Positions 2,739-28,757 of a stretch of DNA of 36,088 nt are shown one piece after another. The stretch spans positions 1-36,088 of the forward strand of contig CAMUYU010000013.1 in NCBI GenBank assembly GCA_947164995.1, written 5' to 3'. How positions within the stretch are numbered: the first letter of the stretch is position 1; each line of letters starts with the position of its first letter. The translations under genes and the position numbers were made by a program. The DNA comes from an uncultured Clostridia bacterium. GTDB lineage: Bacteria; Bacillota; Clostridia; TANB77; UBA1234. Below the pieces are notes generated by a model, which saw only the letters and a program-made list of their open reading frames with translations, was not told the origin of the DNA and did no database searches.

Positions 2739-5700
2739 ATGAGTATTAATTTAAGAAATTATCAAAAAGATGCTTCAGAGAACTCAAGTAGAATATTCAA
2801 TTCTGATAGTTCCTTTAATAGACTTTCTTGCCTTGTTTTGCCAACAGGTGGGGGAAAGTCTTTTGTTGCGATTGATCAAATTATTAAATTTAATAATGAT
2901 TCTCAAAGTATATCTAATAATGGCCCAATAAATACTGCAAATATTCTGTATCTTGCACCTACATTACAAATTTTAAACCAAATAAAAGTTCATATAGTTA
3001 AGCATGTATTAAATCTTGATATAAAAAAGCTTTCTTTAAATGATATAGATAAATTAGTAAATAATGCTTTTCCAAACCTTAAACTAAAATGTTATGCAGG
3101 AATTAAAGATGCTGAAAAAGAAGATTCAACGCAAGATTCAGATATATTAAATGCAGATTTAATAGTGGCCGACGAAGCGCATAGATTAGGTGCAGAATCA
3201 TGGGGAAAGAATTTTTATAGTCAATTAAAACACAATAAAAAAGCAAAAATATTAGCAATTACAGCCACTCCAGATAGAACTGATGATTCTGGAAAGAATA
3301 TGTTAGAAGATATTGCTAGAAATATTTATGATAGAAAAGTACCAGATAAATCTGACTATATTGCAAAAGAGATTTATTTAATGGATGCTATTAAAGATGG
3401 AATATGTGTCGCTCCTGAGAGTATTACTAGTTCTTCTGCTTATGTTTTATCTGATGAATACCAAAGTATTTTGAAAGCATATAATAGTGATGGCATTTCT
3501 AAAGAAAGAAAAGAAGAGCTTGGAAGTATTTTAACACAAATTGATGAACTTATTGGCTTTTCTGGAAGAGATGAGTTATTTGAAGAAAAAAGAGTAAGAG
3601 ATATTCAAAATACACTTGCTCAAAATATAGATAATAAAAATGGTAAATACGTATTTTTTATTCCTCATAATAAAGGAAAAAGTGGAGATGATATTTTAAA
3701 AGATTCTTCAGATTATTTTAAACAATATTATGATAAATTAAGAGAATTTTTTAAAGATGTTAAAGATGAAAATGGAAACCCAGTAAAATTAAATATAAGT
3801 TTTGTTACTAGTAATACTTCAATTAAAGTTGATAAAGATGGAAATCCAACAAATGACAAACATAATGGATTTAGAGTAAATAATTCTCAAGTTATTAAAG
3901 AGTTTGAAGAGGCTTCAAACGAATCGGGTGGAATTAAGATTTTAATAACCAATGATATGCTAAATGAAGGTGTACATGTTGATGGTATAAATGGCGTTAT
4001 TATGTATAGAAATATTATTTCTGGAACAACATACTCTCAACAAACTGGAAGATGTATATCCTCGAGTGATCCAAATTTACCTATTGAATTTCAAAACAAA
4101 GTTAAAGTAATTGATTTAGTTGGAAATTCTATTAAACAAATTAATGACAGAACTGGCCAAAAAACATCTTATTCATACGATTTAGAAAAGATGTTAGAAA
4201 TAGTAAAATGGAATGAAACTCATGCGGGAAAATTTCCAAGCATTAATGCATCATATAAAGAAAGTTCTTCAAATGAAGAGAAAGTTTTTGTAGAAAAAGA
4301 ATTACGTCTCGCTATTGCAACAGAGAGACTTAAATCTAAGTATATGTTATCTAAATCAGGTGCTATTTATAATGCACAAAACAAAGATACAATAGAATTA
4401 ATTGTTGAACTTGCTAATAAAATAAATTTATGGGATTATGAGTCGCAAGAAAGAAATCCATCACTTGAACCTTCACTTGAAAGCTTGCAAGGAAAAGGAT
4501 TTTTAGTTGCAGATGAAACTCATAAAAAGTTTATGGAACTATATTACAGAGCAAACTTAGAAAAAGAGGTTAATCTAACTACACAAGTTAGAATTAAAAA
4601 GTGTATAAATATTCTTAGGGTACTAACAAAATTAAATCCTAATATTGATTTGACGGAGCTATCTTCAAATATTTCATTAAGGGTTAATGATGATGTTACT
4701 TTAAGATCATCAGGATTTAAAGTAATTTCACTTGGTGAGTTTATTGATAAAAACTTTAAAGATGAGGATAAAAAATATGTTTACGATTGTTTGAAAGATA
4801 TTGATGCTCAAGGTGCCATTCATAAAAGAGAGATTTATCGTGATGGCGATGAGCGTACATATGATTTAGGTGAAGAAATTGGCTTTTTAAAAGGAAAGTT
4901 TTATACAAGCGAATTTGAGTATTCTAGAAGAGATGGTAAAGATTTATTTGATGGATATCAATTAAAAGATTTATTAGATATTGGTCTTGTATCAAAATTT
5001 GGTATTGCAGATGATATTGAATCATTAAAGAAGATGAGCCAAGAAAGAGCAAATATTAACGTTAAAGCAGATAAAAATAGTAAATTGATTTCTTATACAG
5101 GATATACATTTGATAGAGAAACAGGGTTCTTTGCACCAGGAAAGCATATTAACATTGATAATATAAATGTAAATCTTATGGATAAGTTTAGAGAGTATTC
5201 ATTTATAACTGGTGAAAAAAGACCAGAAGAGTCTAGAAAAAAAGAACTTATTCCAGGTGGTTATGATAAATCTAGAATTTCTAAGTTTGAAGAAAGAGAT
5301 GGTATCTACTATTGTAAAACTACTAATGAACCATATGATGAAGATGGTTATGATTTTTATGGTTACGACGATAAAGGTTATGATGTTTTAGGTTATGATA
5401 GAGATGGTTATGATATAAATGGTTTTGAAAAACCTTCTAGACCTAAAATTTCTAGAGATGGTGTAATATTTGAAATTAATCTTACGAAGCCTTGTTATCA
5501 TAGAAAAAATATAGATGGTTCATATGATACTCATGGTTATGAATATAAAGATGACATAGATTATTTTGGCTTTAATAAAAAAGATAAAAAACCTAACGAA
5601 AGAGGTTTTTATCCTAATGGAACGAGAGCTGCAAAACCTCAAAAGAAAACACAATTTGGTGCTAAATTAGTTTATTATGATGCTAATGATTTATATGATG

Positions 5701-14020: not shown

Positions 14021-14876
14021 AAAATATTGCACAAAATATTTATTATAATAGAGAAGAGGAATCACTAGGTAAGAAGAAGGATTAAGTATAAATAAATAAT
14101 AGAGTGAAATACTTCACATGCTTAAGATGCTAATACAAAGATTCACGATATGATAAATACATTATATATTATAAGAAATCAATAAATTGTATTTATTGAA
14201 TTGTAACAATGGACAAATTTTAATTTAACTATTAGTGATTATTATAGTTAGTTTTTAAAGTTTTATAATAATGATTTTTATGCACAAGCTATCAGATTAT
14301 ATATCTAATAAATATGATAAATTGAAGATAATGTAATTTATGAAATGTTTATTAATGATGAAATATAAAAATCTTATAAAAATACTAGAAAATAAGCACC
14401 TTCGAAAAAGCCCGAAAAATAGCCCAAAAAACGACGCACGAGAATGCCCTAGAATCGATTTTTAGAGGTTAAGGCATATAGGTATATACCTCAAAAAACA
14501 AGTCAAAATCGTGAAATAGGCAATATATCAATATTTTGGCCATTTTTGAGGAGTGGAGCAAATAATTAGTTAACTAACTATAAATTTTAGTAAAAATAGA
14601 TGAATAATAAAATTAGTAATTAATAATTTGTATAAATAGAAAAGAAATTAAAAACTTTGTAACGTGAAATAACAAGAGGAAGAAATTAGTATAGTAACAA
14701 AGAAACGATTAAAAACAATTTAATGTATAATTAAAACATCAATTATAATGAAACGCTTGAAAATGACTTTAAAGACATTATTTTATTACAGGTATATTAC
14801 AATATATCCTTAGAGGCACAATCGATTGAATATATATTGCTAATTTGCACAAAACATACATTTTGTGCAATATTTT
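14021..14876. repeat. 16-bp inverted repeat bracketing the gene-free region
   Basis: AAAATATTGCACAAAA at 14021-14036 recurs as its exact reverse complement at 14861-14876. A third, partial copy (TTGCACAAAA, direct) lies at 14845-14854 and pairs with the right arm to make a 10-bp hairpin. The arms could be terminal repeats of a small non-autonomous element or the closing helix of a large RNA. Confidence 0.5.
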
Positions 14877-15059: not shown

Positions 15060-15299
15060 TTACTTTTCCTCTGGTGCTCTGAAGACGATTTCCACCTGAA
15101 AATAACCGTGTGTTCTGTCAACGTAGCTATGCACGATCTCATCGGAAATCAGCCGGCCGGTATCAGTGTAAACTTCTCTCATAGCTTGTACTTTGTACTG
15201 AGCATGACGAAGCGCTGCCTCTTCGCTGGAAAACTCCTTGCCCGGTCCGTACTCGTATTTGCGAGATTTCTCACTGTACATTTTAATCTGAGATGCCAT
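15060..15299 (-). CDS. small GC-richer protein of unknown family, 79 aa
   Basis: AAGGAGGAG lies about 9 nt before the ATG and a promoter is visible upstream, so this is a real gene despite its size. The product is soluble and rich in Tyr, Glu and Arg, with a helix in the middle (E-E-A-A-L-R-H-A-Q-Y-K-V) and strands near both ends. This suggests a compact alpha/beta fold. Its G+C and codon choice (for example GAC, CGG and CTG use) differ sharply from the AT-rich genes around it, pointing to horizontal acquisition. No homologue is recognised. It ends opposite the gene-free region. Confidence 0.7.
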   Translation of the reverse strand: MASQIKMYSEKSRKYEYGPGKEFSSEEAALRHAQYKVQAMREVYTDTGRLISDEIVHSYVDRTHGYFQVEIVFRAPEEK

Positions 15300-17745: not shown

Positions 17746-18009
17746 ATGGATGATGTTATATACAGGTATGATGTAGTGTTTAATATTTCTATTAGGCACA
17801 ACGGGAAAGCCACCTATCTTGCAAAGATTAATGATGGGTACACGGCTCCTTACCAACGGCGAGTAGGTCCAGATAAATGTCAACAAGATTTTACTTTTGA
17901 AAGCCTTGATAAAGCTATAAAGTTTATTCGGATGGCTTTTGAAGAATTTTGTGAAGAATTTGAAGTTGTTGCTTTTACTTGCAGGCTGATTCTAAAAAAA
18001 GCCAATTAA
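17746..18009 (+). CDS. small unknown protein, 87 aa (first of a three-gene set)
   Basis: AAGGAGGCG precedes the ATG. The product has an N-terminal strand region, a polar middle, then a helix (S-L-D-K-A-I-K-F-I-R-M-A-F-E-E-F) and a final strand (F-E-V-V-A-F-T-C-R-L-I-L). The late helix-strand layout matches that of the next two genes, suggesting very divergent paralogues. The TTGTTA/TATATT pair upstream (17 bp apart) is a plausible promoter. The gene shares its upstream region with the divergently read symporter. Function unknown; no transmembrane segment or enzyme motif. Confidence 0.65.
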   Translation: MDDVIYRYDVVFNISIRHNGKATYLAKINDGYTAPYQRRVGPDKCQQDFTFESLDKAIKFIRMAFEEFCEEFEVVAFTCRLILKKAN

Positions 18010-18021
18010 CAGGAGGTATAC

Positions 18022-18276
18022 ATGTATTATAATCTTAGATTCTGTGTTAAGGAGACAGTTGAGCCTCAGTGTGTTGATGATGTTCTTACCTACTCTGGCA
18101 CACCTGTAGAAGAAAAAGTAGTTAGACGCGATACAAGAACAAACTACATTCGGCATGAAGCGCATCTGCCTAATTCAAATGCTGTCAACAAGTATGTCTC
18201 TCATTGCTACACTACGTATGGATTCGACTTCTATATAGAAAAGCTCAATTTATGTTCTTATGTCTCATCAGCATAA
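18022..18276 (+). CDS. small unknown protein, 84 aa, paralogue of the next gene
   Basis: It starts 12 bp after the previous gene with AGGAGG before the ATG. The sequence begins with a strand (Y-N-L-R-F-C-V) and has E-x-x-C-x-D-D-V then G-T-P. The segment H-E-A-H-L-P-N-S-N-A-V-N-K-Y-V-S-H-C-Y ends in a strand F-D-F-Y-I-E-K-L. The same positions are conserved in the gene at 18342 (F-Y-V, E-x-x-C, G-G-T, H-E-A-Y, N-x-N-x-V-N, C-F, F-F-Y-V-x-R-L). This pattern suggests a beta-alpha-beta fold of the ferredoxin-like kind. The family is not recognised, and the codon mix is GC-richer than in neighbouring housekeeping genes. Confidence 0.65.
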   Translation: MYYNLRFCVKETVEPQCVDDVLTYSGTPVEEKVVRRDTRTNYIRHEAHLPNSNAVNKYVSHCYTTYGFDFYIEKLNLCSYVSSA

Positions 18277-18341
18277 ACTAAAAGCACGAATTAAGGATTT
18301 AACGTGAATTGATGACGAAGTTATAAAAAGGAGACAATATT

Positions 18342-18587
18342 ATGAAACACAGACTTTTGTTTTATGTACACCCAAGAGATGAGGCCAAGTGCCTAGAGGA
18401 AGTAACCATAAAAGGCGGAACACTTTCTACAATTCAACCAGATGATGAAGATTCACATCATTTCATTGCTCATGAAGCGTATTTTGACAATCTAAATCAG
18501 GTAAATCACTTTATTTATACTTGTTTCTCTTCCATCGGTCTTTTCTTTTACGTTAAACGTCTTGATTATGTCAAAATTGCATTTTAA
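18342..18587 (+). CDS. small unknown protein, 81 aa, paralogue of the preceding gene
   Basis: AAAAGGAG lies before the ATG. The protein opens with R-L-L-F-Y-V and has E-A-K-C-L-E-E-V followed by G-G-T. It carries H-E-A-Y-F-D-N-L-N-Q-V-N-H-F-I-Y-T-C-F and closes with L-F-F-Y-V-K-R-L. Most of these positions repeat those in the 84-aa protein just upstream, so the two are duplicates that have diverged strongly. The intervening 65 bp hold only a ribosome-binding site and no promoter I would defend. A strong two-way terminator follows, shared with rnpB on the opposite strand. Confidence 0.65.
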   Translation: MKHRLLFYVHPRDEAKCLEEVTIKGGTLSTIQPDDEDSHHFIAHEAYFDNLNQVNHFIYTCFSSIGLFFYVKRLDYVKIAF

Positions 18588-18600
18588 GATATAACAAAAT

Positions 18601-18637
18601 AAAAAGCACGAAATCGATTGATTTCGTGCTTTTTTTA
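18601..18637. terminator. bidirectional terminator shared by the small-gene cluster and rnpB
   Basis: Perfect 15-bp stem AAAAAGCACGAAATC / GATTTCGTGCTTTTT with a GATT loop and a T run on each strand. It lies between the convergent 81-aa gene (plus) and the 3' end of RNase P RNA (minus). Confidence 0.92.
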
Positions 18638-18981
18638 GGCAAGTCTATAAGCCGAGTTCTGTATTTGATAATCATTTATCTAGGATGTATATTGCTATAC
18701 ACCTCAATCCGCTTTCCTTAGAACTTCATAGCGAGCAACTATATAGAAGTTCCCCATAGCGTTTCTCCAGGTGGGGTTTACAAAGCTAGTATGTCTCCAT
18801 ACTACTGGTAGGCTCTTACCCTGCCGTTTCAGCCTTACCAATTATTAATAATTGGCGGTTTATTTTCTGTTGCACTTTCCTTAGGGTTACCCCCACTAGC
18901 CGTTAGCTAGCACCATGCTCTGTGGAGCTCGGACTTTCCTCATTGAATATTTCTATTCACCGCGATTATCTGGCTTACCTA
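18636..18981 (-). ncRNA. rnpB: RNase P RNA, class A
   Basis: The catalytic RNA that trims the 5' leader of tRNA precursors. Read on the minus strand it carries GAGGAAAGTCCGAGCTCC near its 5' end. In order after it come a GGTAACCCTAAGGAAAGTGC segment, ACAGAAAATAAACCGCC, GGTAAGAGCCTACC, the TAAACCCCACCTGGAG block and a final ACAGAACTCGGCTTATAG. The ends pair (TAGGTAAG with CTTGCCTA), setting the limits at 18981 and 18636, about 346 nt. The ACAGAAA..AACCGCC region is diagnostic of class A and differs from Bacillus-type class B RNA, which argues for Clostridia over Bacilli. A perfect promoter lies directly upstream and a strong terminator downstream. Confidence 0.97.
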
Positions 18982-25931: not shown

Positions 25932-28757
25932 TTAATAGTTGTTTTTTGTTTCGTCGTCTTCTTCCTCTTCTACTTCTTCTTCTGTTTCCTCCTCAGCCTC
26001 TTCAGTATCTTCTTCATATTCAGTATCATCATCTTCAGAAGATTCTTCTTCCTCTTCGTCTGTTTCTTCGTATTCTTCAGAGTCCTCTTCAACTTCTTCA
26101 TCTTCTTCAACGTACTCAACATCTTCTTCGTCTTCTTCTGCCTCGGCTTCTTGTTGAGCTAGAAGTTCGTTATATTCATCTTCATCGATTTCTTCATACT
26201 TAACTGAATCTACGCCAGCTTCTTTCATTTCTTCCCATTCTTCTTTTGAAATTAATGTTTGACGTGGTTTAGATCCATCGTATCCTGATACAATACCTCT
26301 TTCTTCCATTTGGTCAATAATTCTACCAGCCCTTGCATAACCAACTTTAAATTTACGTTGAATCATAGAAGCAGAAGCGTTACCCATTTGGACAGCAAGT
26401 TCAATTGCATCAACTAATAGTTCATCAGCATCAGGTGCTTTTGTACCGTTTCCGTTTGAATCATCTGTTACTGTTGGAGGTCTATTTTGTTTTTCAAATT
26501 CTTCAATAATATCTGGATCATATGATACTTTGTAATGGTCTTTAACAAAGTCAATGATTGTTTCTATTTCTTTATCTGTAACAAAAGTACCTTGTACACG
26601 TACAGGTTTTTCTTCTCCTATTGGATAATAAAGCATATCACCTTTACCAAGAAGTTTTTCAGCGCCACCCATATCAAGAATTGTTCTTGAGTCAATTTGC
26701 GATTGAACAGTAAATGCAATTCTTGAAGGTATGTTTGCTTTAATTATACCTGTAACAACATCTACAGAAGGACGTTGTGTAGCAATTATTAAATGCATAC
26801 CTGCGGCTCTTGCCATTTGTGCTAACCTACAAATAGCATCTTCAACTTCTGAAGGTGCAACCATCATAAGGTCTGCAAGCTCATCTACAATTATTACTAT
26901 TTGTGGAAGTGTGTCATCTAAACCTTCTTGTGTAAGTGCATCATTATATCCTCTAATATCTCTTACACCTTTAGCAGCAAATAAGTTATATCTCTTAACC
27001 ATTTCTTGTACTGCCCAGTTTAATGCACCGGCTGCTTTTTTAGCATCCGTAACAACTGGAATAAGTAGATGAGGGATTCCATTATAGCCACCAAGTTCTA
27101 CCATTTTAGGGTCTATTAATATTAATTTAACTTCGTTTGGTTTAGCTTTATATAATAAACTTACTAAAATTGAGTTAATACATACTGATTTACCAGAGCC
27201 TGTAGAACCAGCAATTAATAAGTGAGGCATCTTTGCTATATCAGATACATAAGGCTCACCATCTATGCTTTTACCAAGAGCAAATGATACTTTTGATTTG
27301 GCTTCTTGGAATGCGTCTGATTCTAGTACTTCTCTTAAATATACAGTTTCTTTTGTTTTGTTAGGCACTTCTATACCAACAGCAGATTTACCAGGTATAG
27401 GAGCTTCAATTCTAATTGATTTTGCTGCTAAGTTAAGAGCAATATCATCTGATAGACTAAGAATCTTAGAAACTTTTACACCAGCATTTGGTTGAACTTC
27501 ATATTGTGTAACTGTTGGACCACGAGTAACATTAATAACTCTTGCATCAACATTAAAGTTTGTAAGTGTCTTTTGAAGTTTACTTGCAATCTCTCTTAGT
27601 TCTTTTACTGAATATTCATCATTTAATTCCTCACCCTCATTTAATAATGATATTGGTGGAAATACATAGTCTTCATAGCTTTCTACTTGTCCATGTTCTA
27701 AATTAAGAACAGGTGCCTTTTCTTCTTTTGGTTTAGTTTCTGGAGCTGGAGTATATAAATTAGTTAGTACTCTAACTTTATTAGGTTCTTTCTTAACAGG
27801 TTCTTCCTCTTGAACTTCTTCCACGTCTTCTTCCAAAGTTTCGTCTTCATCAAGGTTTTCAAGAATTGGATTAGTTTCTTCTTCAGCTGTTTCTCCTTCT
27901 TCTTCTAAATCTAAATCATGAATTGTAATTTGTTTTCCTGAATCAACAATTTCAGTTTGTTCCATGATTTCAGCAAATTTTTTATTTCTTTCTTTTACTT
28001 TTGAACTTGATTTGGTCTTTATAGGAATTTCAACCTCTTCTTCAGGTTCTTCTTCTACATCCTCATCTTCTTCCTCTTCTTCTAGCATTCTTCTTTCTAG
28101 TTCTTCTTGTCTTGCTAGTCTAAGTTGTGCGATTTCTTCTTTTCCTTTTTCTTTTGAATCAGCAAAGAAGTCTCTAATGCCGAGAATTATTGACGAAAAT
28201 GCAATACCTGTAACTAAAAATCCCATAGCTATTATAATTCCTATTATAATTACCTTTGCAATTGTAGTTCCAAATCCAGCTATTAAGAATACCGCTGGAA
28301 TTGCACCTATTAATCCTGCTCCTGCATTTGGATCTATGTCAAAATCTAATCCTTTTTCAATCATTGTACCTATTGCCTGGAATATATTAACTATTCCGCC
28401 TTCTGGTACAGTAAAATCATTGATAGTGATTAAAGCAGAAATAGAAATAAATAGTATTATAAATGGTGCAATTTTAAGTTTGAACTTTGAATAGTCTTTA
28501 AAAATAACATATATTCCCATAATCATTAAGGCAAATGGAAAAACTAAAGCCATCTTGCCCATAAGACCACCAAGCATAAAATGTTTGATGATTCCACCTA
28601 AAAATCCTTCTTTTGAGGAATCTGAATATATGATAAATGCAAAAATAACGCCCAAAATAATGAGTGATAGTGATTGTATATCAACATTTTTCTCTGGCAC
28701 TCTTGACGATTTTTTGTTTTTTGTTACTTTCTTTTTCTTAGTAGTTGTTCTTGCCAT
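25932..28757 (-). CDS. ftsK: FtsK/SpoIIIE-type DNA translocase with acidic tail
   Basis: Septum-located motor that pumps chromosomal DNA into daughter or forespore compartments. The 941-aa protein has four to five membrane segments (to ~190), then a long Glu-rich linker (~200-350). The motor domain follows, with Walker A G-S-T-G-S-G-K-S (517-524), Walker [11 protein letters not shown] and the conserved [11 protein letters not shown] gamma winged-helix domain (~780-838), with [10 protein letters not shown], reads orienting DNA sites. Unusually, about 100 residues follow it, nearly all Glu, Asp, Ser and Tyr; orthologues normally end at the gamma domain. AAGGAG precedes the ATG. Promoter-like TTGAAA and TATAAT/TAATAT sequences lie upstream. 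It heads the seven-gene run to gpsA. Whether it is FtsK or SpoIIIE in function is not decidable here. Confidence 0.95.

Follow-up and report, generated by a model that had tools for sequence, protein, structure and literature searches.

The gene-free interval at positions 14,021–14,876 of the window (the whole 36,088-nucleotide stretch of DNA analyzed here, from an uncultured Clostridia bacterium) very probably contains a dif site located at the replication terminus. The right arm of the inverted repeat that bounds the interval is one half of a 26-bp palindrome with a 6-base centre, TTGCACAAAA-CATACA-TTTTGTGCAA (14845–14870, + strand), which consists of a left arm (14845–14854), the centre (14855–14860), and a right arm (14861–14870). 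Sequence comparisons with relatives indicate that the interval is likely to have arisen by insertion into an older dif, and we consider the joint reading, a dif at the terminus that bears an old insertion, quite likely.

A Xer/dif site comprises two inverted arms of about 11 bp flanking a centre of 6–8 bp, and is present in one copy per genome, at the terminus, where the GC skew shifts. The palindrome shows the corresponding layout of 10-6-10 bp. A search of 191 genomes of the order using the pattern TTGCRCAAAA-N6-TTTTGYGCAA with at most one mismatch detected the site in 141 genomes, of which 135 carry exactly one copy and six carry two to four copies, and the reversed pattern, used as the control, yielded zero matches in the same 191 genomes. 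The genome of the window itself contains a single match even when up to three mismatches are allowed. Of 135 sites, 70 have two fully symmetric arms. No site was detected with at most one mismatch in the other 50 genomes; three of these that were inspected carry the site with two or three mismatches, and one stretch fetched from this group (L296) lacks it. The best matches to the canonical Firmicutes dif (a 28-mer) in five long stretches had 7–10 mismatches, versus 5–8 in shuffled controls. A related but asymmetric site, TTGCACAAAA-N6-TTTTATGCAA, is present in several copies in two genomes (G273, contigs C19, C23, C26, and C31; G090, contigs C5 and C6), and genomes with this asymmetric site fall both inside and outside the order; perhaps these sites serve DNA inversion or another Xer-like recombinase.

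The position of the site is consistent with a terminus. Among 41 loci (40 collected by a dif-first search, plus the window), 39 have a GC skew that is positive before the site and negative after it, and the two that do not flip end within 500 bp of the site. The maximum of the cumulative GC skew lies at most 500 bp from the site in 23 of the 41 loci, and that of the window, at about 14,693, falls inside the interval. The distance between the skew maximum and the site in the five long stretches is approximately 40 bp (G036 and G044), 90 bp (G002), or 1.3 kb (G047 and G081); in the 12-kb loci of the last two genomes (L246 and L236), a xer gene is situated between the site and the maximum. Gene orientation also converges at the site in the three contigs examined, and the genes of the window are on the + strand from 2739 up to the interval and mostly on the − strand to its right. 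The skew depends in part on gene orientation, so that exactly where it turns does not count as separate proof. Nevertheless, the frequency of the site, its single copy, the skew flip, and the frequent presence of a neighboring xer gene (24 of the 41 dif loci have one in the sequence span covered) together suggest that the palindrome is very probably a chromosome-dimer-resolution site at the terminus.

Three other features to the right of the interval were observed. A 79-aa ORF (15060–15299, − strand) has a G+C content of about 50% amid surroundings of about 28%, shows no Pfam or NCBIfam match, and was possibly acquired. Three consecutive small ORFs of 81–87 aa occupy 17746–18587 (+ strand), two of which share one similarity cluster with an ORF of G002. 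The RNase P RNA (class A, 298.9 bits) is encoded at 18632–18981 (− strand), about 4 kb from the terminus.

The sequence-only reading had described the interval as gene-free and bounded by a 16-bp perfect inverted repeat, and both descriptions were confirmed. The arms, 14021–14036 (AAAATATTGCACAAAA) and 14861–14876, are exact reverse complements, and the repeat in fact extends to 17 bp; when the interval was shuffled 300 times with its dinucleotides preserved, no perfect inverted repeat exceeded 16 bp, a length reached in only one shuffle. The longest ORF lying wholly within the interval encodes 41 aa, and a decayed protein gene was rejected on this ground. The reading had also assigned a terminator-like hairpin to the right arm; this arm is indeed the 3′ half of a hairpin (14845–14870), but no typical T-run follows, and a more terminator-like repeat sits outside the interval (14924–14935/14942–14953). 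With respect to its proposal of a non-autonomous mobile element, an event of the mobile type is supported, because the arms look like split dif halves around an insert, whereas a multi-copy transposon is not, because the search for other copies that the reading had called for found no second copy of the interval in the genome's own 1.09-Mb, 85%-complete assembly. A MITE, of which several copies are required, was rejected for the same reason. Neutral decay, which had been associated with a lack of conservation in relatives, is not indicated, since strong conservation was found. A first search of relatives listed 74 of 95 genomes, but many of the rows were AT-rich chance matches, and it served as a lead only; in the relatives, the blocks follow one another in the same order, first the left arm, next a core (GACGCACGAGAAT...), and then the right palindrome.

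The left flank of the interval (14021–14036) carries a dif half-site, TTGCACAAAA (14027–14036, + strand), identified by half-site matching, which we propose to be the host-derived left half of the older dif. The half-site of the window matches the right arm of dif over 16 bp versus the left arm over 10 bp. In the family of the window, half-sites located upstream of the core were listed when they shared at least 8 bases with one of the dif arms, and all 11 of them match the right arm further (11–17 bp, versus 5–10 bp for the left arm), although the half-site search favours consensus-like arms and is thus biased towards the better-conserved right arm. The window and G002 are the two loci that possess both a half-site and an intact dif left arm, and both still favour the right arm. 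No half-site with such matching was found in three of 11 loci compared (L026, L039, and L044). Xer-mediated insertion into dif predicts that the outer arms derive from the host and the inner arms from the insert. The half-site matches the outer and not the inner arm of dif, suggesting that it is the footprint of a Xer-mediated insertion into an older dif. As in an element integrated by the host's Xer (IMEX), one end has a full dif and the opposite end a hybrid half-dif, with the outer arms coming from one original site. We therefore propose, on the basis of this matching, that a segment was inserted into dif by Xer recombination, which would have displaced the left half of the older dif and restored a full dif at the right-hand end.

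The proposed insert between the halves of the older dif (14037–14854) is gene-free in the window, and the relatives in the genus have differing small ORFs in this place, one of which encodes a DUF4177 protein. In one locus of G003 (L024, about 4100–5100), two core units stand one behind the other. Behind each unit comes a stretch that resembles a promoter, much alike in both, and then a small ORF (one of 105 aa, the other for a 69-aa DUF4177 protein), which gives the terminus a cassette-like layout here. An integron-like attC was considered for these two core-plus-ORF units and dropped, because the scores of the recombinase fall far short of the cut-offs for integron integrases and because the site with two arms is a dif. 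A replication fork trap, with inverted Ter sites around dif, was also considered since the arms flank the terminus in inverted orientation; it was dropped because each arm fits a dif half-site. Across the order, the right-arm half-site pattern (at most three mismatches) was found upstream of the core in 46 of 135 regions, typically 300–450 bp out, versus one of 135 shuffled regions. The left-arm pattern, which is the orientation of the window, was not enriched upstream (5 of 135 versus 4 of 135 shuffled), indicating that half-sites oriented as in the window are not a general feature of the order.

The conserved core of about 65 bp (14426–14491) lies within the 0.8-kb insert and consists of a block, AAAAACGACGCACGAGAATCGATTTTAAG-CGTTTTT, followed by a dyad like AGGCATATAGTTTGTTGTCT. 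In the window, nhmmer and the alignment of relatives delimit block A (AAAAAACGACGCACGAGAATGCCCTAGAATCGATTTTTAG; 14426–14466, + strand), and the alignment delimits block B, the dyad AGGCATATAGGTATATACCT (14472–14491, + strand). The core was found beside dif in 37 of the 40 dif-first loci at E <1e-3 and in 38 at 1e-2; of the two loci without it, L248 ends 47 bp past dif on the expected core side, and L256 is a true miss. Conversely, 168 non-redundant core loci were collected, and dif is located downstream of the core in 135 of them, at a distance of 124–494 bp (median 354 bp). In 780 kb of three long stretches, the core occurs at dif alone, apart from weaker copies close by. The 24-base heart of the core (at most three mismatches) was present in 8 of 12 genomes of the same order and in none of 279 sampled genomes of other orders.

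A tyrosine recombinase of about 320–345 aa is encoded near the element in many relatives. It matches the XerC, XerD, archaeal XerA, and XerS models, below every cut-off (for XerS, 163.4 and 157.8 bits versus a cut-off of 267), and XerH is only a distant relative among PDB entries. The genome of the window encodes a 340-aa Xer recombinase of this kind, not at the dif locus but on another contig (G000:C6:31280–32287), with 77% identity to the protein of a relative, and a TTGCACAAAA half-site is located just upstream of this gene. Just upstream of the gene (L222) there is also a long MITE-like inverted repeat, in which AGCAAGCTGTTGTGATATATTACTA is separated from its complement by about 170 bp as judged by eye. 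The 340-aa recombinase is predicted to bind both 10-bp arms at 14845–14870, and strand exchange in the 6-bp centre would separate sister chromosomes joined as a dimer. This resolution would probably take place at division with FtsK; the window encodes, at 25932–28757 (− strand), a DNA translocase of the FtsK/SpoIIIE type that has the alpha, motor, and gamma domains (Pfam PF17854, PF01580, and PF09397) and may activate the site. The same genome also encodes a canonical 294-aa XerD (348.6 bits, cut-off 329.6), and thus does not have a single Xer; a two-recombinase system is therefore a further possibility.

Mobile elements appear, from their sequences, to use the dif site, which raises the alternative that the 26-bp palindrome is the attachment site of widespread Xer-like integrative elements and not a dimer-resolution site of the host. 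Of 27 core loci without a full dif and with enough sequence, 12 (counted by eye) keep the dif left arm (at most one mismatch) and the centre and then run into other right arms, e.g., TAATACAAACC, as element junctions do; away from dif, the core is seen mainly at such junctions of elements integrated at dif. One of the junctions leads into ParA and ParB genes, which alone is no proof of an element because these genes also occur on ordinary chromosomes. A viral contig (L180) encodes a 323-aa Xer-like integrase and bears the core along with two half-sites of this kind. In addition, a family of another order has the same 26-bp site directly upstream of a xer homolog in four of four genomes, without the core, and the 20-kb stretches covered there show no skew flip at the site. 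The alternative is nevertheless improbable, since the single site in 135 of the 141 positive genomes is spread across many genera, the skew flips there in nearly all loci, and the five long stretches contain no canonical dif better than that of shuffled sequence. Two genomes (G032 and G084) possess both junctions of this type and a full dif.

Still less credible is a large structured RNA closed by a long-range helix, which the sequence-only reading had offered as the other explanation of the interval. The gene-free interval, the conserved blocks in fixed order, and arms that vary together (in G003, TTGCGCAAAA with TTTTGCGCAA; in G001, AAAAGATTGCACAAAA with TTTTGTGCAATCTTTT) would agree with it. 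However, the covariance-model search against large bacterial RNAs that had been suggested gave nothing at the gathering score in the interval, where only chance-level matches appeared at E values up to 10, and no Rfam match in the loci of 17 relatives at E values up to 1. RNAalifold predicted no structure for the core from 164 sequences, and an all-pairs covariation scan of the core detected mainly neighboring columns of one subfamily and no stacked helix. Moreover, relatives have protein-coding ORFs between the arms, and the f3 and f5 families carry the site without this partner arm. The joint variation of the arms is that of one palindromic site, and the apparent long-range helix arises because both arms belong to one recombination site. 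In plasmid-type Xer systems, an accessory sequence is bound by PepA together with ArgR or ArcA and imposes resolution selectivity. We tentatively suggest that the core acts as an accessory element controlling Xer recombination, an assignment that falls somewhat short of probable; the best hint is that the junctions described above carry the core together with the attachment site. The locus may instead be a dif whose core plays no part in recombination and is simply a promoter or leader region of xer that was kept, or left behind, at dif when xer moved. One family has the core between dif and a divergent xer, immediately upstream of the xer start, and the core may thus be a xer control region; xer adjoins the core in 17 of the 168 core loci. 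In contrast, the core is retained in 83 of the 135 dif-plus-core loci in which the sequence available shows no xer, and in the window's genome the 16 kb around the relocated xer contain no core; the core thus belongs to dif rather than to xer. Elements at dif also carry the core, and we regard a mere promoter remnant as rather unlikely.

The nearest known kinds, according to excerpts of PMC5357621, are the single-recombinase dif modules XerS/difSL of streptococci and lactococci and XerH/difH of Helicobacter and Campylobacter, which likewise have a terminus-linked site with near-symmetric arms, a xer gene that often adjoins it, and a recombinase longer than XerC/XerD. The present site differs in its arm sequence and in its centre of 6 bp, versus 11 bp reported there for difSL; in addition, the recombinase is under the XerS cut-off, dif is accompanied by the conserved core and the half-site, and a canonical XerD is also encoded. 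The insertion resembles that of element LME-1 in the XerL/dif system of Legionellales, in which dif was recognized through an insertion flanked by an intact dif on one side and a modified dif on the opposite side (excerpts of PMC9765430). Unlike LME-1 as described there, the insert in the window is gene-free and carries a conserved core, and the displaced half retains one arm only. As with the plasmid Xer sites cer and psi, for which accessory sequences are known, a conserved DNA region lies on one side of the Xer site and possibly times recombination; here, however, the site is chromosomal, and the core is 124–494 bp from it instead of adjacent (excerpts of PMC11724359). A survey of dif in sequenced genomes predicts sites from profiles and GC skew (excerpts of PMC3025954). 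Searches of the open-licence literature listed nothing on this order for Xer, for dif with accessory sequences, or for Xer in Clostridia; with sequence strings, the titles of the listed matches were unrelated and none was listed with the core string, which is no proof of absence.

The analysis supplies a candidate dif site and a recombinase for an order represented, judging by record titles, almost only by metagenome assemblies, and the candidate dif marks the replication terminus in its genomes. The site also points to a landing place for mobile elements in these bacteria. The Xer sites of large replicons have been reported, in the excerpts of PMC11724359, to be devoid of accessory sequences, so that a conserved companion of a chromosomal dif is unexpected. 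It can now be tested whether accessory DNA, in addition to FtsK or in its place, can govern Xer recombination on a chromosome. It is conceivable, though doubtful, that an early insert into dif became permanent in the order, such that dimers are resolved via a dif with a distant accessory element under plasmid-like control, which mobile elements have copied to integrate at the terminus. If this is true, an order of gut Clostridia would resolve its chromosome dimers under plasmid-like control on the chromosome.
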